A stretch of 60,496 nucleotides of DNA from the IMG/VR virus record IMGVR_UViG_3300033146_000395, positions 1 to 60,496 of that record, one strand, 5' to 3'. The DNA is from a virus. Each line of letters begins with the position of its first letter. Positions within the stretch are counted from its first letter, which is position 1. This document shows positions 5,437 through 56,901 of the stretch, piece by piece. Both the position numbers and the translations under genes were made by a program. The notes under the pieces are model-generated. The model made no database searches. It worked only from the letters and a program-made list of their open reading frames with translations, and was not told the DNA's origin.

Positions 5437-7860
5437 GTGATAACTATATTTAAGAACATAAAGGAAACGTCCACTCCTTATTACAGGGATGTAAAGGTTG
5501 TCTTAGATAGAATAAAGAATGGGAGCTCAAAGGAAAGGGTAAAGTTAATACGACAAGAGAAAGATAAATCAAACAGAAACAAACTAAAACAGGATTTACC
5601 TGCCGTTTGTTTTTCAGGAACATTCTCAAAGAGATCGGACACAGGACTTCAGGATCACAGCGGACTTATATGTCTTGACTTTGATGGGTACAAGACCAAG
5701 AAAGATTTGATGTCAGACAAGGATCAGCTTTCTAAAAACAAGTATGTTTATTCTGTTTTTGTTTCTCCATCCGGGAATGGACTAAAGGCTTTGGTTAAAA
5801 TACCAAAGGATCCTGACAATCATGTTGGATATTTCAGAGCATTGGAAGAATACTTTCAGTCTGAATACTTTGACAAAGCATGTAAGAATATTAGTCGTGT
5901 TTGTTACGAGTCTTATGATCCACTCATTCATGTCAACGAGACATCTAGTTTGTGGGACAAGATTGCTGAGCATGAGTACAGACCCATAGACAAATACAAG
6001 GAGAGACCAACCATACCTATTACAGACGAGAACAAAGTTGTTGATCGACTTATGTCTTGGTGGAAAAAGAAGTATGGTATTATAGAAGGGGAGCGAAACA
6101 ACAATGTGTATGTTTTAGCTGCAGCCTTCAATGACTTCGGAGTCAATAGATCTTTGGCTGAGTATGTCATGTCGGAGTTTCAAACAAGAGACTTCCCCAT
6201 GTCTGAAATAAAAACGACTATCGACTCTGCATACAGGCACACAACTAAGTTTGGTAGCAAGTATTATGAAGACGAAGAAAGAGTCTATCAGATACGCCAA
6301 AAGATTAAGAAGGGTGTGCCAAAAAAAGAGATACGTTCTCAGTTAATAGACTCCAATATTGAGGACGTTGTAGCAGACACAGTCATAAACCAAATAGAGG
6401 AAGATGAATCTTCTAAAAGGTTTTGGACTAAGAGTGATAAGGGAGTCATCAATATCGTTCACTATTTATTCAGAGAGTTTCTTGAGGACAGTGGGTTTTT
6501 TAAATACTGCCCTGAAGGAGCAAAAAGCTTTGTGTTTGTTAAGGTAACTAACAACCTTATAGATCACACCAATGAGGCTGAAATCAAAGATCATGTCCTT
6601 GATTATCTAGAGAATAAAGTAGAGGATCTGGAAGTGTACAACTTCTTTGCAGATAAAACAAGGTTTTTTAGAGAAGACTTTCTTTCTTTGTTGAGCCCGG
6701 TTAACGCATTCTTCATATCTGATGATAAGCACACAGCTTATTTGTATTACAAGAACTGCGCTGTCAAGGTGACGAAGAAGGCTGTAACTACTATTGACTA
6801 TATAGATCTAGATGGATTTGTATGGAAAGACCACGTAATAGATAGGGATTTTAAAAGTTGTGAGATAACAGATTGTGACTTTCAGAAGTTTATATCTAAC
6901 GTATGTGGGGGAGACGAAAAAAGAATAAAGTCAATGGAGAGTACCATAGGTTATTTGCTGCACGCATTCAAGAACCTATCTTATTCTCCTGCAGTTATAC
7001 TAAATGACGAGGTTATATCTGATAACCCTGAAGGTGGGACAGGTAAGGGTATATTTATGAATGCCTTGTCTCAAATGAAGAAGGTTGTCACGATAGATGG
7101 TAAAGGGTTTACGTTTGAGAAATCGTTTGCCTATCAGCTTGTATCTGCAGACACGCAGGTGCTTGTGTTTGATGATGTTAGAAAACACTTTGACTTTGAA
7201 AGATTATTTTCTGTTGTTACGGAAGGCCTTACCCTTGAGAAGAAAAACAAAGATGCGATCAAAATCCCATTCAGTAAATCACCGAAGATCGCAATCACAA
7301 CTAACTACGCTATCAAGGGTAAAGGTTCTTCTTTTGAAAGAAGGAAATGGGAGTTAGAATTTAAGCAGCACTACAGCTCTGAGCACACGCCTCTTGATGA
7401 GTTCGGCAGGTTGTTGTTTGGAGATTGGAATGATGATGAGTGGTGTGTGTTTGACAACTACATGATACGAAACCTGTCTAACTTTTTATCTACAGGTCTA
7501 GTTAAGAGTGAGTTTGTCAACCTTAAAATTAGGAAGCTATCAGCTGAAACATCCCACGAATTCATCGAGTGGTGCGGATTGACAAGAGGATCTGAAAACA
7601 ATGAGAGGTTAGTTACAAACCAATATTTACTTTGCCAAGATTTATATGCAGAATTCATTCAAGAGAACACAGACTACGGGCCAAGAGGTAAGATGAGTAT
7701 ATCAAAGACTAAATTTTACAGGTGGCTTATAGCGTATGGGTTGTTCTTGACAGGAAGGAATCCTGAACAAAGTAAATCTTCACAAGGTAAAACTATAATG
7801 TTTATTGATGAGACGAAAGAAGAAAACCAGAAAGAACATGCCATCGACATTCCATTCTGA
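5437..7860 (+). CDS. Replication protein: VirE-N/primase-like N terminus plus SF3 helicase (807 aa)
   Basis: The start is GTG at 5437. Residues 1 to about 180 match the VirE N-terminal (BT4734-like) domain frequent in Bacteroidota elements, with F-S-G-T-F, D81-F-D-G and V-S-P-S-G-N-G-L-K. A PriCT-like helical part follows to about 280. The C-terminal half is an SF3-type helicase: Walker A G-G-T-G-K-G at about 534-539, Walker B V-L-V-F-D-D at about 574-579, and I-T-T-N-Y sensor near 620 with an arginine pair downstream (F-E-R-R-K-W). I infer primase plus replicative helicase in one chain, the central replication enzyme here. No polymerase gene is seen, so the host enzyme would be needed. Confidence 0.85.
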   Translation: MITIFKNIKETSTPYYRDVKVVLDRIKNGSSKERVKLIRQEKDKSNRNKLKQDLPAVCFSGTFSKRSDTGLQDHSGLICLDFDGYKTKKDLMSDKDQLSKNKYVYSVFVSPSGNGLKALVKIPKDPDNHVGYFRALEEYFQSEYFDKACKNISRVCYESYDPLIHVNETSSLWDKIAEHEYRPIDKYKERPTIPITDENKVVDRLMSWWKKKYGIIEGERNNNVYVLAAAFNDFGVNRSLAEYVMSEFQTRDFPMSEIKTTIDSAYRHTTKFGSKYYEDEERVYQIRQKIKKGVPKKEIRSQLIDSNIEDVVADTVINQIEEDESSKRFWTKSDKGVINIVHYLFREFLEDSGFFKYCPEGAKSFVFVKVTNNLIDHTNEAEIKDHVLDYLENKVEDLEVYNFFADKTRFFREDFLSLLSPVNAFFISDDKHTAYLYYKNCAVKVTKKAVTTIDYIDLDGFVWKDHVIDRDFKSCEITDCDFQKFISNVCGGDEKRIKSMESTIGYLLHAFKNLSYSPAVILNDEVISDNPEGGTGKGIFMNALSQMKKVVTIDGKGFTFEKSFAYQLVSADTQVLVFDDVRKHFDFERLFSVVTEGLTLEKKNKDAIKIPFSKSPKIAITTNYAIKGKGSSFERRKWELEFKQHYSSEHTPLDEFGRLLFGDWNDDEWCVFDNYMIRNLSNFLSTGLVKSEFVNLKIRKLSAETSHEFIEWCGLTRGSENNERLVTNQYLLCQDLYAEFIQENTDYGPRGKMSISKTKFYRWLIAYGLFLTGRNPEQSKSSQGKTIMFIDETKEENQKEHAIDIPF

Positions 7861-12005: not shown

Positions 12006-12081
12006 AGATACAGCACCCTGGATTATAGCTATATTTGTTAGCGCATGCTTTTGGTACTCTATTCTAAGGCATTTCCTGTAG
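11995..12081 (+). CDS. Putative single-pass membrane micropeptide (28 aa)
   Basis: From ATG 11995 the product is a short acidic N terminus, a hydrophobic stretch (W-I-I-A-I-F-V-S-A-C-F-W-Y) and a basic C-terminal R-H end, the layout of a small membrane peptide. It overlaps the preceding gene by 11 nt and runs 18 nt into the end of the convergent late operon. It would be the last plus-strand early gene. Short length makes coding status uncertain. Confidence 0.35.
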   Translation: MKNEDTAPWIIAIFVSACFWYSILRHFL

Positions 12082-15000
12082 CTCAACATCTTGTATTTCG
12101 CTGTACTTTTTAAATAGCTTTAGGTAAGTCTTATTGAATTGATCAAACAGTCTATCTTCTGCAGTCTCTATCTTTTTTAGAATCCTTTTCTTTTTAGATT
12201 CATCTTTTATTTTTTCGGCATTAACCCTTGTTTCTCTCAGGCCTTTCAGGCTTTTATCTATGTTCTTGTACACTTTTTCTAATGCCAAGGCGCTAGAGTA
12301 AACCTTGTTATCTAAAGATGGCCTTTGTCCTGATGCTATTGACTCTTTGTAATCTCTAACTAGAGTAGATATCTCATCTCTTCGTTTGTAGTATTGAGAT
12401 TGATCTATATATCTACTGTTCTCACCAGCAAATCTTCTTGCGAAAGGAATCTTTCTAGTCTCTAAATCAAACTCTTCTCCTGCAGCTGCATCAACAAGAC
12501 CTTCGGTTGTTGCCATTATATTCTTTACGAACTGACCTGTCCCTCCTATATACTGATCTACTATGTATTCAAAAATCTCTGGCTGAACATCTATTGATCC
12601 AGATCTAAACTCGCCTCCTCCACTAACTTCGTTGAGCCACTTTGATATGGCTTTATATGCTTCAGGAGTTGTTCTTCTTCCAAGCTGACTCTCTGGCTTT
12701 GGCGCACCAGCTGGAAAATTTTCCTCAAATATTTGAGTTCCAAAAAAGTTTTCATTCGCAAGAATATCACCAAGAGGTTTTACTACTGAAGGTGTAACTA
12801 ACTTCCCTGCTTGAGTCAACTTGCTGTCGCTAGTTGGAACAGTAAGTGGAGAGAATGCTCCAGTGAAAGACCTAACTAAAAATTCAGATGTGTCTCCAGC
12901 ATCTTTGTTTCCTGTAGATACGTCATGAAGGGCTTGCCCCATGTTATAGAATACATTATATCCGTAGGGCAGTGGTATTTTTATGTAATCTTTACCGTTA
13001 GGCTTCATGATTATAAGGTTTCTTTCTTTCTCATAATCAGGTATCTTACTAAAGAAAGACTCTCCATCATCATCAATATCAGACATCTCTTCATTCATTG
13101 CAGCTAGTAGAGCACTACCCCCTACTATTCCAAACGCAACTTTCTGAGCAGGGTTTAATTTTTTCTTAGTCTTACCTGTAACTGGGTCAATTGTTGTGGA
13201 TAGGGTTGTCATTGCTTTACCAAATCTAGCAGTACCCTGTACTGAAGCGTTGAAGAATAAGAACAAGGAGTTAAACAATCCTCCTAATTCACCCTTTTGA
13301 TTGAAGTTAACCGTCAAATCTTTAGCTATTGACGCAGCCTTTTGTCTGTCTACACCAGATTTTCTAGCCTCCATGTATGCAGCTAAACGTGTGGAGTTCT
13401 CAGCAGCTGAGTTCAAAGCGTCCACAAGCTTGCTTGTCTTTTTGAAAAACTCTTTTGTACTCCCAGGTTTTTGAACTGAACTAGCAAACCCATCCAATTG
13501 TTTTTTTATATCTTCATTGCTTTTGGTATAGAAGTAACCTGTCTTAGCTCCGTCTTCCACAAAGTCATTATAATATTTAACAAGCTCCGGATCTAAACCT
13601 TTAGCTATAAGCTCTTGATCACCAAGCAACCTTCCCTCTGCATCTTTTGTTTTACCTCTTTCAACTGCAGCAATAGTCTTAAGTGACTTGCGTGAATTAT
13701 TTGCTATAGATAAAGCTAATTGCGTTGGGTTCTGCATGGGTATACCACTATCAGCTAAAGCGTTTAGGATTCCTGTTTGAATATCTCTGACGTAGTTTAC
13801 GGCAATAAACTCTGGGTTGGCAGTTGTAAATACTTTTCTTAAATAATTATTGATCAAAGCCAATCCTCTTATTCCATTTTGCAGAACACCTACACCTCCT
13901 ATACTCGCATCGTTTAGAGATTTGGTTATTGATTCGTCTTTAAATTTTATGAAATAATCTTTACCATCCTTCACGACTCTAACATAATCTTCTTTGTTTG
14001 CAGACATTTCTCTTGGGGTCAACGGAGACATAACTCTTTGCCCTCCTTCTAATTTAGGGGCCATGTCTGGTGATTCTGCAGTATAAACAGTATATGCTTC
14101 GCTTGGGTTTTCTTGGACCAAGTTTAATAAGTTTTGCATAACAGCGTTCTTCTCAGCTCTCATTATGGCTGTGGTTCTAGCTTGTATTATATTAGAAAGA
14201 ACATCTCCCGCCTTACTTCTTCTACCAAGCGCAGCCCTTGTTTCCCCACCCCTTAACGGAAGAACGCTTGATGACTCTCCAACTATGTCTGTTATTCTAT
14301 CAACTCCAGATTTCTCGTCAAATCCTTTTAAAGGAACGTAGTTTTGGTATTGATTTTGTTTTAGATTCTGATACTCCTGTTCTGTTATTAAGCCACGGTC
14401 TCTAAGTATTTGAAGTGTCTGATCTGTGATTCCTAAAAACTTATCTGCAGCTTTATCTAACGCAGCCTTTTGTTTAGGGGTAAAGCTATCTATAATTTTT
14501 TGAGCCTCTTGATCTGTCATACCAGATCCTGCTTCATTGTCCGGGTCTCTTGTTTCTTTAATGAACTTGTTTCTTTCTGGCGCATGCAAAGCGTACAGGT
14601 AATCAGATATTTGGTCAGGAGTTACTCCTGATTTAGCCGCTTCCTTTACGGAGGCCTCGACTTCAGCTTCAAATTTATCTAGTTGATTTCTGGTTTTACC
14701 ATACAATAATTTCTCTGCTGTATCAAAATCTCTGTCTCTCTGTGTCTTTTTTCCGGCTGCCTTTTCTACTCCTCGCTGCAGCTTTCTAACTCCATATAGC
14801 CTATCGACAAAAGCCTTGGTCGCTCGGTCTATTAGACTTCCAATACGTGTAGACTTACCAGCTATCTCTTCTTCTGTTAAAATCTTTTGAGGCTCATCAT
14901 CTACCGCAACCTCTGTTTCCGTCTCTGATTCAACTTGGTCTTGGGTTTCAATCGTTTCGGTAGTTGGTTGTACTTCACCGGGTACTCCTTCAGCCACTTC

Positions 15001-16536
15001 TTCAGTAACTGCGGATTCTCCGACGCTAGCTTCCTCCATTGTGCTTGGCTTCTTACTGGCATATTTTTCGTATATTAAATCTAACTCATTATTGATATCC
15101 TTTTTTCTTTCAGCTGCAGTTCTTGAGCTATCTCCCTCTAATTGTTTTAGTTCCATCTCCAACACGATGATAGCATCTCTATCGTCTCTGTCGGTGATTC
15201 GATCAGGTATCAGCGCATCCATCTTGCTATTGAATATTGCGTCTTGTTTTTTGAGCGCAAACTTATTCTTAAGATCAGGATCGTTTTTTATTTCAACAGT
15301 AACTCCTGCAACGTCCTCTGGTTTACCTTTCTCTAAAATATCTACCACCTCATCCCTACTTCTTCTCTCTCCATTTATCTTGTAAGACGGAGTTTTATAT
15401 AATGCAAGACCTACAGATATAGGAGCTGTGGTAGTTCCTGTAACTGTTTCAAACCCAATCTCCGCTACATCCATTTCTTGTCCAGCAACCTTTCTAGCTA
15501 CAGTCTCCCCTGTGCCTCCACCTACCGCTTCAATACCTATACCTGTTGTTGCGCCTTTCAGTTTAGGAGCTTTTTTAGCAGCAGATGCTACGGCTTTTGT
15601 GGCTTTACCTGCAATGCCTGCTGTTATACCTTCTATTAGCCCTATAGCTATGCCTCTTCCAGCTGCACGTCTTCGTATTCTACCCATTTTATCTGGGTCA
15701 GATATTACTTCTCTTACATTCTCTAATGTAAATTCTTTTCCTTCTAACTCCTCTATAAGAAACTCATTTAACGACATAGCTGTTTCTAAAGATCCGGAAG
15801 CTCCCATTATGAATCCCCCTATAGCCCCTGGCACAGCTCCAATACCTGAAGCTGAAGCGCCTACTAATGCTCCTGCTCCCGATAATGCTGCACCGTAAGC
15901 TAAAGCATCTGCATCTAACATGCCTCGTACTGATGAAGTAAATAGCTGTGGAATTACCGTTGGGTTTTTGTATATGCCTTTTAAGAACCCCCATACACCT
16001 TCACCCTCTTCTTGATATACTTTTTGAAAGTTATTCATTTCATCTGAAGGTCCGAAGGACTCCATGTTTTTTACTGCAGCTATATACTCTTGTAATTCAT
16101 CATCTGAAATTTCAGAACCTTGACCAAACAAACGCATGGCATCATCAATAGTGTCACCCTGTGCAGCGCCTTGTTGCCAAGATCTATATATGTCTCCAAA
16201 AAAATCTGTGAACTCGTTCTTACCGAACTGTCTTTCTATTGCTGTTAGCTTTTCTGTAGACCCCAATCCAGATGGACTGACTTCTTCCGATGTAATAGAT
16301 TCCATAACGCCCCCTTGAGAAGAAGAAAGAGAGTCGTCTTTTTTTTTTAAACCTGTGTTGTCAGCCCAATCATTAAAAGAACTGTCTGTAAGTTTTTTAT
16401 CAACCAAATAAGTATAAATAGTTTGCTGAACAGACGGATCATTAGATACGTTTACAACCCACTCCTCAAAAGAACTCGTGGTTTTACCGTCCCTTGTTAG
16501 TTGATCCCAAATATTTTTTAACAACTGCTCGTTCAT
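12064..16536 (-). CDS. Large internal virion (ejection) protein with LPD38-like domain, 1490 aa
   Basis: Last gene of the late operon. The N terminus holds a K-K-K-D-D-S-L-S-S-S-Q-G-G linker motif that I associate with large virion proteins of marine phages. Residues about 180-340 are Gly/Ala-rich and hydrophobic, possibly membrane-interacting; 420-540 is acidic low complexity. Residues about 740-1130 look like the large polyvalent protein-associated domain LPD38 (A-L-G-R-R-S-K, T-A-I-M-R-A-E-K-N, N-P-E-F-I-A-V-N-Y-V-R-D). The end is helical coiled coil. By position after the hub gene and gp14-like protein, I infer an inner-core protein ejected with the genome, similar in role to T7 gp16. No lysozyme motif found. 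Confidence 0.75.
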   Translation of the reverse strand: MNEQLLKNIWDQLTRDGKTTSSFEEWVVNVSNDPSVQQTIYTYLVDKKLTDSSFNDWADNTGLKKKDDSLSSSQGGVMESITSEEVSPSGLGSTEKLTAIERQFGKNEFTDFFGDIYRSWQQGAAQGDTIDDAMRLFGQGSEISDDELQEYIAAVKNMESFGPSDEMNNFQKVYQEEGEGVWGFLKGIYKNPTVIPQLFTSSVRGMLDADALAYGAALSGAGALVGASASGIGAVPGAIGGFIMGASGSLETAMSLNEFLIEELEGKEFTLENVREVISDPDKMGRIRRRAAGRGIAIGLIEGITAGIAGKATKAVASAAKKAPKLKGATTGIGIEAVGGGTGETVARKVAGQEMDVAEIGFETVTGTTTAPISVGLALYKTPSYKINGERRSRDEVVDILEKGKPEDVAGVTVEIKNDPDLKNKFALKKQDAIFNSKMDALIPDRITDRDDRDAIIVLEMELKQLEGDSSRTAAERKKDINNELDLIYEKYASKKPSTMEEASVGESAVTEEVAEGVPGEVQPTTETIETQDQVESETETEVAVDDEPQKILTEEEIAGKSTRIGSLIDRATKAFVDRLYGVRKLQRGVEKAAGKKTQRDRDFDTAEKLLYGKTRNQLDKFEAEVEASVKEAAKSGVTPDQISDYLYALHAPERNKFIKETRDPDNEAGSGMTDQEAQKIIDSFTPKQKAALDKAADKFLGITDQTLQILRDRGLITEQEYQNLKQNQYQNYVPLKGFDEKSGVDRITDIVGESSSVLPLRGGETRAALGRRSKAGDVLSNIIQARTTAIMRAEKNAVMQNLLNLVQENPSEAYTVYTAESPDMAPKLEGGQRVMSPLTPREMSANKEDYVRVVKDGKDYFIKFKDESITKSLNDASIGGVGVLQNGIRGLALINNYLRKVFTTANPEFIAVNYVRDIQTGILNALADSGIPMQNPTQLALSIANNSRKSLKTIAAVERGKTKDAEGRLLGDQELIAKGLDPELVKYYNDFVEDGAKTGYFYTKSNEDIKKQLDGFASSVQKPGSTKEFFKKTSKLVDALNSAAENSTRLAAYMEARKSGVDRQKAASIAKDLTVNFNQKGELGGLFNSLFLFFNASVQGTARFGKAMTTLSTTIDPVTGKTKKKLNPAQKVAFGIVGGSALLAAMNEEMSDIDDDGESFFSKIPDYEKERNLIIMKPNGKDYIKIPLPYGYNVFYNMGQALHDVSTGNKDAGDTSEFLVRSFTGAFSPLTVPTSDSKLTQAGKLVTPSVVKPLGDILANENFFGTQIFEENFPAGAPKPESQLGRRTTPEAYKAISKWLNEVSGGGEFRSGSIDVQPEIFEYIVDQYIGGTGQFVKNIMATTEGLVDAAAGEEFDLETRKIPFARRFAGENSRYIDQSQYYKRRDEISTLVRDYKESIASGQRPSLDNKVYSSALALEKVYKNIDKSLKGLRETRVNAEKIKDESKKKRILKKIETAEDRLFDQFNKTYLKLFKKYSEIQDVELQEMP

Positions 16537-54860: not shown

Positions 54861-55043
54861 CTATGAGAGTAAATCGTTACGCATTTTAGAACGCATTTCT
54901 GCTAGTTCAATTCCGTCTGCAATATCTTTTACGGCTTTAGAAGCCTTCATCTGACGTCGATACATACTTGCCTCCTCGATGCCTGAGATTCCATCAGGTC
55001 TTAGGTTGATTAGTCTTCCGTTTTTTACAATTAGTCCGTCCAT
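54861..55043 (-). CDS. Small hypothetical protein (60 aa)
   Basis: Short beta start (D-G-L-I-V-K-N-G-R-L-I-N-L-R-P-D-G) then charged helices (M-K-A-S-K-A-V-K-D-I-A-D-G-I-E-L-A-E-M-R). Ends before a good terminator and follows another small minus gene by 2 nt. Function unknown. Confidence 0.6.
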   Translation of the reverse strand: MDGLIVKNGRLINLRPDGISGIEEASMYRRQMKASKAVKDIADGIELAEMRSKMRNDLLS

Positions 55044-55045
55044 GT

Positions 55046-55189
55046 TTATTTATATAATAGGTTAATTTCTAGTAATCCTAAATGGATCGAGAACTCACTA
55101 TAGTCGTACTTATCGTCCTTATGGTAGTATGACCATCCGATAGCAAAACCTGTGTGTATTCTGTTTCGGAGTTCAATGATCCAATCCAT
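55046..55189 (-). CDS. Small hypothetical protein (47 aa), possibly leaderless
   Basis: A 47-codon frame with H-T-G-F-A-I-G-W-S-Y-Y, a D-D-K-Y-D-Y-S-E-F-S-I-H-L-G-L-L segment and a beta-rich end. I recall Y-S-E-x-x-I-H-L-G-L as recurrent in small phage proteins. The TATCTTTG box ends only 3 nt before the ATG, so the mRNA would be leaderless or nearly so. Stop is 2 nt before the next gene. Confidence 0.6.
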   Translation of the reverse strand: MDWIIELRNRIHTGFAIGWSYYHKDDKYDYSEFSIHLGLLEINLLYK

Positions 55190-55200: not shown

Positions 55201-55332
55201 AGGTTTTTTCAGATACCCGTATTGATTGGGTAATATATATATTCTACGTTCGGTGTGTCAATTCGGAAATCGTTTTTTTTTCGTGGGGGGGTGTGTTTTT
55301 TCGTTTGGTTTGTTCTGATTTTTTGGCGTTTT

Positions 55333-55402
55333 TACGCGTGTGTGCGTGTGCGTATGCGTGTATGTGTGTGCGTGTGTGTACGAGCGTGCGTGTATGCGTG
55401 CG
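55333..55402. repeat. 70-bp alternating pyrimidine-purine tract (Z-DNA-prone)
   Basis: From 55333 to 55382 every step alternates pyrimidine-purine (CG, TG and TA steps such as GTGTGCGTGTGCG); after a three-purine break at 55382-55384 it resumes to 55402. CG/CA-TG steps are the sequences that most readily adopt Z-DNA under negative supercoiling. Confidence 0.8.
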
Positions 55403-55527
55403 AAGTTTCAAACCCTTTTGCCCTTCCCTCGTTTACATCATCACCCCACCGAACGAAAAGAAAAGAAACAAAAAACCCCCTAATTTCCTTCGATAAACTA
55501 AAAAAAAGTGAAAAAAAATTTGCGTAG

Positions 55528-55535: not shown

Positions 55536-55571
55536 CATTATGTACTTTTGGCGATATAAGTTCTTTTTTTT

Positions 55572-55979
55572 ATGAATACAAAAGCGAAAAACAGCGCAGT
55601 TGTGAACAATAGTAGCAACGCGCCAAAATGGTTTGTTAATGCTCAAAACGTCATTCAAACACTAAACGCAAAAGATGAGCGTACAGCGTTCGATAGCGTT
55701 CGACTAGCAAATCAATTATTCAAAATTGAAAATCGTAGCTTAAGCAAAGTTTACAACGAACTTAAAAATTCGTCTGGGGATATTGCAAAAGCAGTTGCCG
55801 AAGTTTTAGGCAAATCAAGTTTCCCAACCTTTAAAGCGTTCAAAAACGAAGCGAAGCAAGGGCAACAATTTTTTTCAATTTACGCAGGGTTGATGATGTT
55901 AAAAAAATTCAACAAATCAGCCAAACAAGTGGCAAGGGCAAAGCGACAAAGCAAAGCCCAAGCCCAAAAAATAGCATAG
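55572..55979 (+). CDS. Basic hypothetical protein (135 aa), first plus-strand gene
   Basis: A Lys/Ala/Asn-rich helical protein with a Lys/Gln/Arg tail (V-A-R-A-K-R-Q-S-K-A-Q-A-Q-K). No family recognised. Codon usage uses gcg, cgt and agc more than neighbours, and the start region TTTTTTTTATG is unlike others. It ends in TAG with two terminator-like hairpins directly after. Could be an early DNA-binding or host-takeover protein; inference. Confidence 0.6.
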   Translation: MNTKAKNSAVVNNSSNAPKWFVNAQNVIQTLNAKDERTAFDSVRLANQLFKIENRSLSKVYNELKNSSGDIAKAVAEVLGKSSFPTFKAFKNEAKQGQQFFSIYAGLMMLKKFNKSAKQVARAKRQSKAQAQKIA

Positions 55980-55985
55980 TTTGCG

Positions 55986-56031
55986 AGGGTCAAAAATGAC
56001 CCTTTGAGGGGTGCAAATCCCCTCTTATTTG
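55986..56031 (+). terminator. Tandem hairpins after the 135-aa gene
   Basis: AGGGTCA (55986-55992) with TGACCCT (55997-56003), 7 bp and 4-nt loop, followed by GAGGGG (56006-56011) with CCCCTC (56019-56024) and TTATTTG. The second stem plus T-rich tail acts as an intrinsic terminator. Confidence 0.6.
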
Positions 56032-56040
56032 CTAATCTTA

Positions 56041-56683
56041 TCGAGTTTGACAAATGTAGGAATTTTCCTACATAGTCATAAGTAGTAGCATCAACGAGGC
56101 GCAACGCCATACAGACGCAAAGTCTATTCGTTGAAGTGAAGCCAAAATAAGAGGATATACTGATAACACAGAGGAACGACCTCTCGATGACCGACAAAGG
56201 TACATGGGAAAGGTGTATGCAGTGCCGTACAACGATACGCGCCGTAGAACTACGCTACGAACAAACACTTACACTATCCACATGCGACTGATGTTAGTGT
56301 GACTATCATGATGAAAGCGATTGACAAAAATACTCATGCATGGGGTTGCCTTGTAGTGACAGAACACAGGTATATCAAAGCCCAATATCGCTATGCATAC
56401 CTACGAGATTTCGGTACTTCGGTACAAGCGTAGGGTTTACCCTTTCAGTATGGGGCTGTTTATATATTTTCAGCCAAAAAAATACCATACGACAAGCAAG
56501 TGCAGACACAGAGGGATAAACACGTACAGATATATTGCAGTAGAACGGAACAGAGAGAAATGCAATAGACAAATATATATATAAATCTATGGCTAAGGTT
56601 GAGCTGTCTGAGAATGATTGAAAGACAAAAACCTACACTACCAACGGGGCGAGGCTCGATACCTTTCCCCGTATCTAATTTTT
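56041..56683 (+). ncRNA. Candidate large structured RNA (about 640 nt)
   Basis: No convincing gene over 640 nt, but many hairpins. Examples: TGAC..ATGTAGGAA/TTCCTACAT..GTCA (56048-56078); a three-way junction closed by TCAACGA/TCGTTGA (56091-56134) with arms GGCG-CAA-CGCC and AGAC-GCAAA-GTCT; AGCGAT/ATCGCT (56316/56387); GTAC-TTCG-GTAC; GTATGG-GGCTG/CAGCC-bulge-CCATAC (56448-56490); TATTGCA/TGCAATA (56533/56561); nested AGGTT-TGTCT/AGACA-AACCT (56596-56634). It ends with a strong stem at 56644-56672 and TTTTT. Size and density recall ornate large RNAs of phages (GOLLD/ROOL type). The strand is inferred from the 3' stem plus T-run. Confidence 0.4.
56644..56683 (+). terminator. Strong hairpin with T-run at the end of the structured region
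   Basis: ACGGGG (56644-56649) pairs with CCCCGT (56667-56672); a C-T mismatch and GAGG/CCTT (with one G-U) continue the stem to a 7-nt loop. ATCTAA then TTTTT follow. It lies 17 nt before ATG 56689, separating the structured region from the small-gene operon. Confidence 0.6.
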
Positions 56684-56688
56684 AAGTT

Positions 56689-56901
56689 ATGCAACAGAGA
56701 AAACGAGTTCGCACTAAAAGTGTGGGCATATTCATGCATAATCAATACACCAGCAGACGAAAGAAATTTGGTGAATTGGTTAAATTAAGACTGATCGAGA
56801 AAGGTCTTGACATTACGACTGCGACATTCAAAGCAGAATGCCAACTACTAAACAATGAGTTAAGGCAAAGCAGACTTGAACGACAACTATCAATGATATG
56901 A
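56689..56901 (+). CDS. Basic hypothetical protein (70 aa)
   Basis: Highly Arg/Lys-rich, helical (L-R-L-I-E-K-G-L-D-I-T-T-A-T-F-K-A-E-C-Q-L-L-N-N-E-L). First of the early small-gene series, overlapping the next gene by 4 nt. Unrecognised. Confidence 0.6.
   Translation: MQQRKRVRTKSVGIFMHNQYTSRRKKFGELVKLRLIEKGLDITTATFKAECQLLNNELRQSRLERQLSMI

Follow-up and report, generated by a model that had tools for sequence, protein, structure and literature searches.

A candidate large structured RNA paired with a small basic protein gene at the head of a phage early operon

The window, a stretch of viral DNA of 60,496 bases analysed here at its full length, appears to encode a large structured noncoding RNA of ~680–710 nt (~55980/56006 to ~56685) directly after a small basic protein gene, ORF135. 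A probability of about 0.5 is given to the reading in which the two form a module and act as an RNA-protein complex in infected cells. Such a module is supported by a fixed gene order, by the lack of coding, by a conserved 5' domain with compensatory changes (the T-arm-like hairpin, H1, a three-way junction, H3 and a domain-closing helix), and by a conserved 3' motif. Judged from sequence comparison, two further phage lineages, only distantly related, keep the shape of the RNA more than its sequence. The sequence-only reading of this DNA had proposed a large ornate RNA at 56041–56683, and this holds, as folding, compensatory changes and the short ORFs all came out in its favour; the upstream protein gene paired with the RNA went unmentioned there. 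The stretch itself stands, but not its start at 56041, since the conserved element begins at or before 56006 and the RNA starts by about that position, probably just after ORF135.

Phage GroEL, primase, helicase and virion proteins are encoded on the window, an IMG/VR virus contig. Its closest annotated relative is the podovirus MW202828.1 (circular, 60,850-bp), and the gene order suggests that a genome of this type appears in the window in rotated form. The turning point of the GC skew, at ~55 kb, coincides with the divergence of leftward structural/groEL genes from rightward early/replication genes, and the RNA region sits just inside the rightward operon: ORF135 is the first gene of this operon and the RNA lies directly after it. 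The gene downstream of the RNA differs between lineages, which makes ORF135 the constant partner. Near the GC-skew minimum, between the groEL operon and ORF135, a GT-rich, imperfectly repeated tract (GTGTGCGTGTGCGTATGCGTG...) was observed at 55288–55405. Upstream of groEL, small leftward ORFs (54861–55189, minus strand) fall within the DNA stretch most strongly matched by nhmmer in relatives. Elsewhere, positions 12064–16536 (minus strand) encode a protein of 1490 aa, which over its C-terminal ~900 residues has ~33% identity to a large protein found in Stx-converting and in Vibrio phages, annotated in some of them as an LPD5-domain protein.

ORF135 has a pI of 10.4 in the window and of 10.4–10.5 across three lineages, and its AlphaFold model consists entirely of helices (pLDDT 81). 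Comparison of this fold with the PDB gave no match; structurally it matched only A0A516M6Y5, an unnamed protein of viral origin (48% identity). Searches of Pfam, NCBIfam and PHROGs with ORF135 returned no family above noise and no RNA-binding domain. Relatives 37–45% identical to ORF135 are found in two other phage lineages (related records are referred to by L numbers): the L199 homologue shares 41% identity over 109 aa (E=2e-19), and a two-sequence profile adds homologues in L223, L224 and L225, followed by L235 (45%). L246 gave a weak ORF135-like match (E=0.002); bacterial genomes and GenBank phages yielded no homologue.

By using blastn and nhmmer, the region itself retrieved nothing from phages and ~220 related loci, and palindromic hairpin matches from a pattern scan were attributed to chance; with the direct nucleotide searches having failed, relatives were reached via the neighbour gene ORF135. 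Every ORF135 has downstream of it a G-rich hairpin whose loop of 7 nt reads UGCAAAU, UGCAAUU or AGCAUAU, and past this hairpin every relative has 490–570 nt without ORFs, and then a hairpin and CTAATTTTTAA. The window and L223 have in common an ordered series of words, namely GGGGTGCAA, TAAGTAGTA, AAGCCAAA, ACAAAGGTA and GTATCTAATTTTTAA. The RNA model R2 and the protein models A3/A5 were applied to over 100 phage records, some related and others not. Each clear ORF135 homologue has the RNA downstream, and R2 found no good RNA match lacking ORF135 in more than 125 other phage records. At whole-record level R2 did not pick up L199, so a diverged RNA could escape detection elsewhere. Weak R2 matches in the L024, L030, L056 (L247) and L008 records were discarded as GC-rich hairpins without the junction. 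Between L223 and L225, divergence is 1.4% in the 3' domain of the RNA, 10.6% upstream of ORF135 and 7/35 at ORF135 fourfold sites; the genes downstream are likewise similar in this pair, so the low 3'-domain value is modest evidence of constraint.

Other stretches were noted in these phages. Two genes after the ncRNA, L223 has a second ORF-less intergenic stretch (6483–6670, with equivalents in L224 and L225) that could form strong stems, with several hairpins enclosed by ACGCAGGA...TCCTGCGT. The same phage operon in L199 contains a match to the Rfam DUF805b RNA (RF02914) at 5575–5607 (plus strand; 42 bits, above gathering score). A similarity to Rfam DUF2693 in L030 was dismissed as it lies on the wrong strand.

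Table 1. Position of ORF135 and of the RNA elements in the window, with counterparts in related phages.
Feature	Position	Strand	Counterparts in relatives	Basis or remark
ORF135	55572..55979	+	homologue groups: L199; L223/L225/L235; L224	small basic all-helical protein; codon score z +2.9, homologues, AF2 pLDDT 81, pI
Possible tRNA-like minihelix around T-arm-like hairpin	55973..56034	+	short pairings, not significant alone: L223 AAGTAG/CTACTT; L199 GGCTT/AAGCC	TAGCATA (55973–55979)/TTTGCTA (56028–56034), 6/7; weak
Extra hairpin GAGGGTCA-AAAA-TGACCCTT	55985..56004	+	window only	between ORF135 and T-arm-like hairpin; p 0.93
T-arm-like hairpin GAGGGG-UGCAAAU-CCCCUC	56006..56024	+	GGGGG-UGCAAUU-CCCCC (L223, L224); GGGGG-AGCAUAU-CCCCC (L199)	model match; outer pairs covary
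Domain-closing helix P2	56036..56152	+	L223 TTTATCGG/CCGGTAAA; L224 TTTATCGG/CCGATAAA	56036–56041 TCTTAT with 56147–56152 ATAAGA; alignment to model
Hairpin H1 (13-bp)	56048..56078	+	L223 AGAAAU/AUUUCU at equal offset (48 nt)	
Conserved word TAAGTAGTA	56079..56087	+	L223	between H1 and junction
Three-way junction UCAACGA(GGC-GCAAC-GCC)(AGAC-GCAAA-GUCU)UCGUUGA	56091..56134	+	L223 5444–5485; L224 924–967; L199 671–719; architecture repeated with loop CAA kept in L223 and L199	ensemble and descriptor scan
Conserved word AAGCCAAA	56139..56146	+		after junction
Hairpin H3 AGAGG-AACGA-CCUCU	56170..56184	+	GAAGG/CCUUC (L223); GGGGG/CCCCC (L224)	
Conserved word ACAAAGGTA	56194..56202	+		
Predicted long-range helix closing 3' domain	56206..56669	+		56206–56216 with 56659–56669; p 0.68; conservation unproven
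Hairpin CGUA-CAACGA-UACG	56226..56239	+	L223 UGGU-[GCAACGAA]-ACCA	
Stem with A-rich bulge	56448..56490	+	L223 look-alike, by eye: AATGAG/CTCATT with AAAAA bulge	ensemble p 1.0
Terminal hairpin ACGGGG...CCCCGU	56644..56672	+	other sequences instead in L223, L199	
3' boundary motif GTATCTAATTTTTAA	56671..56685	+	15 nt identical in L223; CTAATTTTTAA in L199	

The conservation of the fold was evaluated with a covariance model, R1, built from the L223 group only (window excluded; 168 positions, 39 pairs). Over the whole 60.5 kb and both strands its best match was 56006–56186 (plus strand), with 43.5 bits and an E-value of 3e-9, the next match reaching 17.8 bits; a sequence-only model of the same rows gave 23.4 bits (E=2e-6), and the E-values are rough by the tool's own statement. 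Sequence thus backs the homology, and pairing contributes a further ~20 bits. Between L223 and L224, which are 97% identical, no pair of the model is broken by the substitutions in its stems. Three of these are double changes, one in the T-arm-like hairpin (T-A to A-T) and two in H3 (A-T to G-C each), and the change of U-G in L223 to U-A in L224 in P2 favours the plus strand; with two distinct rows only, this result was not significant by the shuffle control (62/500). Once the window was added, in an alignment fitted to the model, 13 of the 39 pairs change on both sides, 99% of the cells pair and none of 500 shuffles reaches this level. In a hand-made helix table the count of double changes was 32 of 41; its stems were chosen for good pairing, so this figure overstates the case, and the model and descriptor tests were relied on instead.

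An independent descriptor for the three-way junction with its CAA loop found exactly one match in each noncoding region (4/4), against a background of 0.2 per kb, or 0.04 per kb at a stricter setting. In the window, L223, L224 and L199, respectively, the distance from the T-arm-like hairpin is 48, 48, 44 and 71 nt for H1, 85, ~75, ~70 and 86 nt for the junction and 164, 149, 145 and 176 nt for H3. The junction, its flanking hairpins and the T-arm-like hairpin recur at matching offsets with most of the stem letters exchanged. L199 is matched by the model solely at the first (T-arm-like) hairpin, so that its membership rests on gene order, junction and 3' motif. Compensatory changes in relatives, which the sequence-only reading had proposed as a check, are present, and conserved secondary structure with such changes, as expected of a large phage ncRNA, was found across three lineages only.

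Past the junction and H3, the hairpin loop CAACGA lies 36–37 nt after ACAAAGGTA in the window (36 nt), L223 (37 nt) and L224; this extends the conservation to ~56240. Beyond that point only the terminal hairpin and the 3' motif are clearly shared, the stem with the A-rich bulge having its look-alike in L223, and the 3' half of the RNA is only partly validated.

Against dinucleotide shuffles (n=20), the 643 nt of the original stretch fold with a z of -3.15 and 55980–56690 with a z of -4.75 (20 shuffles), in both cases better than shuffled sequence. The excess of stability lies mainly at the 5' side, with a z of -5.6 for 55980–56210 and of -1.9 for 56200–56690 alone; since some ordinary genes in the window reach -4.3, folding energy alone is not decisive. 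Of the individual stems that had been picked out by eye, those looked for (56048–56078, 56091–56134, 56448–56490, 56596–56634 and the UUCG stem) are all in the predicted ensemble, from which the proposed long-range pairs AGCGAT/ATCGCT and GTATGCA/TGCATAC are absent. An RNA including the ORF135 frame, suggested by a 13-bp helix (55540–55553/56192–56205) and a z of -7.5 for 55540–56160, was ruled out: in L223 the partner strand is missing upstream of the gene, and ORF135 is itself a coding-like frame whose protein is conserved.

That the stretch is poor in genes was borne out, as no coding-like frame lies in the ~710 nt that separate the end of ORF135 (stop at 55979) from the ORF that follows (56689). 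Open frames of 34–63 codons are present, and unannotated small genes instead of an RNA could be read from them. However, the two short ORFs, singled out beforehand for a check of codon pattern, score at or below shuffled level (z -0.5 for 56187–56291 and 0.0 for 56308–56433, with +2.9 for ORF135), and no homologous ORF was found in L223 or L199. With no conserved open reading frame in the RNA region, as befits a large phage ncRNA, the small-gene reading is the least credible one considered.

Under the preferred reading of a large RNA acting with ORF135, the RNA would be co-transcribed with ORF135 from a promoter upstream of that gene, would be released by cleavage close to the T-arm-like hairpin and to the 3' hairpin, and may act with the basic ORF135 protein as a complex in infected cells, like other large phage RNAs. 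The RNA lies inside an operon and the next ORF follows 3 nt (window), 13 nt (L199) or 30 nt (L223) past the 3' motif, so that processing or termination would be required to yield a free transcript. This same position makes a cis-acting role the main rival, one considered rather unlikely: a large antitermination/attenuation RNA of the early operon, in which transcription would run from an early promoter through ORF135 into the RNA, whose fold, with or without ORF135, would set read-through past the 3' hairpin/U-tract (cf. lambda N/nut, HK022 put). Such control would fit the location directly after the first gene of the operon, the little room left for a promoter and the conserved hairpin and CTAATTTTTAA; moreover, in the window the 3' arm of the terminal hairpin is also part of the predicted long-range helix, which would compete with that hairpin. 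However, the conservation of this helix is not significant. The terminal stem and T-run had been read beforehand as a terminator, and this did not survive: in three lineages the T-run begins 5–9 nt past the stem and the terminator scan lists nothing there, so it does not qualify as a canonical intrinsic terminator. The antitermination RNAs known from phages are much smaller, and this difference in size argues against such a role as well.

The RNA might also be a structured 3' untranslated region of the ORF135 mRNA, a stability/processing tail with no separate RNA. Its constant place directly downstream of ORF135, with the T-arm-like hairpin at the stop codon, would agree with this, but elaborate conserved junctions, conserved unpaired words and a domain-closing helix, spread over more than 200 nt, go beyond what such a tail requires, and the reading is judged improbable. 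Lower still is the credence given to a permuted or split tmRNA-like RNA, with the T-arm first and acceptor strands re-pairing downstream. TGCTA (56030–56034), after the T-arm-like hairpin, can pair with TAGCA (56086–56090), and L223 has an equal topology (ACTACTTA/TAAGTAGT). Against this, the downstream strand is missing in L199, U55 of the T-loop is replaced by G, ARAGORN and the Rfam tmRNA models detected neither a tRNA-like domain nor a tag ORF, and there is no tag-like conserved ORF. A type III toxin-antitoxin system was also dismissed, as the RNA lacks a repeat and the all-helical ORF135 protein matches no known fold.

Separately, minimal tRNA-like elements of ~40–50 nt were noted in the early operons of related phages, mostly just past a stop codon. 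They have a 6–7-bp acceptor stem, a short GG-containing loop and a canonical T-arm without an anticodon arm, and their acceptor sequences are wholly different yet pair. Sites on the minus strand are L030 ~5826–5872, L024 ~6374–6414, L018/L022 2596–2637, L061 146–182 and L070 680–728 (CCA after); further ones are L196/L197 5518–5558 (plus strand) and one in L007 upstream of groEL. The T-arm motif upstream of groEL occurs 13 times in sense and 0 in antisense, some of the 13 being ordinary tRNAs, and ARAGORN detected none of the minimal elements.

As regards known families, the window gave no match to Rfam 15 at gathering threshold, and neither the window nor the relatives matched the Rfam group I or group II intron models. 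GOLLD is a large structured RNA of phages and prophages, over 800 nt in many members, and ROOL is phage-encoded and ~660 nt; both form homo-oligomeric RNA nanocages, are often found near tRNAs and have unknown functions (PMC12286853). The similar size, the phage location and the tRNA-like hairpin at the 5' end here speak for an RNA of this type. However, the GOLLD, ROOL, OLE and HEARO models returned nothing at E<=10 in 55900–56800 and nothing at E<=5 in L223 or L199. A divergent member of GOLLD, ROOL, OLE or another family already in Rfam is therefore very hard to credit; among the earlier options of a known family, a divergent relative or something new, the last is favoured, no Rfam large-RNA model matching even at relaxed thresholds. 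The RNA seems to represent a new family among the large structured RNAs of phages.

Only a handful of such families are known, with functions yet to be settled. The obligate-looking partner gene ORF135 is a handle that ROOL lacks, and with this gene adjoining the RNA, function becomes directly testable by binding, deletion and read-through. Tentatively, ORF135 and the RNA might be a ribonucleoprotein machine of a new type in phages, in which a large RNA that mimics a tRNA at its 5' end is joined by a basic protein dedicated to it, made as infection begins and acting on the host translation or transcription apparatus. More generally, a neighbour protein can lead to a large phage ncRNA too diverged for BLAST or Rfam.

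In comparison with known systems, GOLLD is alike in its large size and phage setting and differs by the lack of a model match here and by the fixed partner gene ORF135 of the present RNA; it is also better conserved in its 3' half, whereas the present RNA is better conserved in the 5' half. ROOL is alike in length and phage origin, again with no model match, and is without a known protein partner, while the present RNA always adjoins ORF135. OLE is bacterial rather than phage. It resembles the present RNA as a large structured RNA and works with proteins (PMC12286853), with no model match here and ORF135 belonging to no Pfam family. The tRNA-like domain of tmRNA shares the T-arm-like hairpin and possibly the short 5' acceptor pairing, with the differences that the loop UGCAAAU here is without U55 and that neither a tag ORF nor an ARAGORN or Rfam detection accompanies it. 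The lambda N-nut and HK022 put RNAs are likewise structured RNAs early in a phage early operon, that of lambda being near the gene of its protein partner; the present RNA is ~ten times larger, and the likeness is solely one of position.
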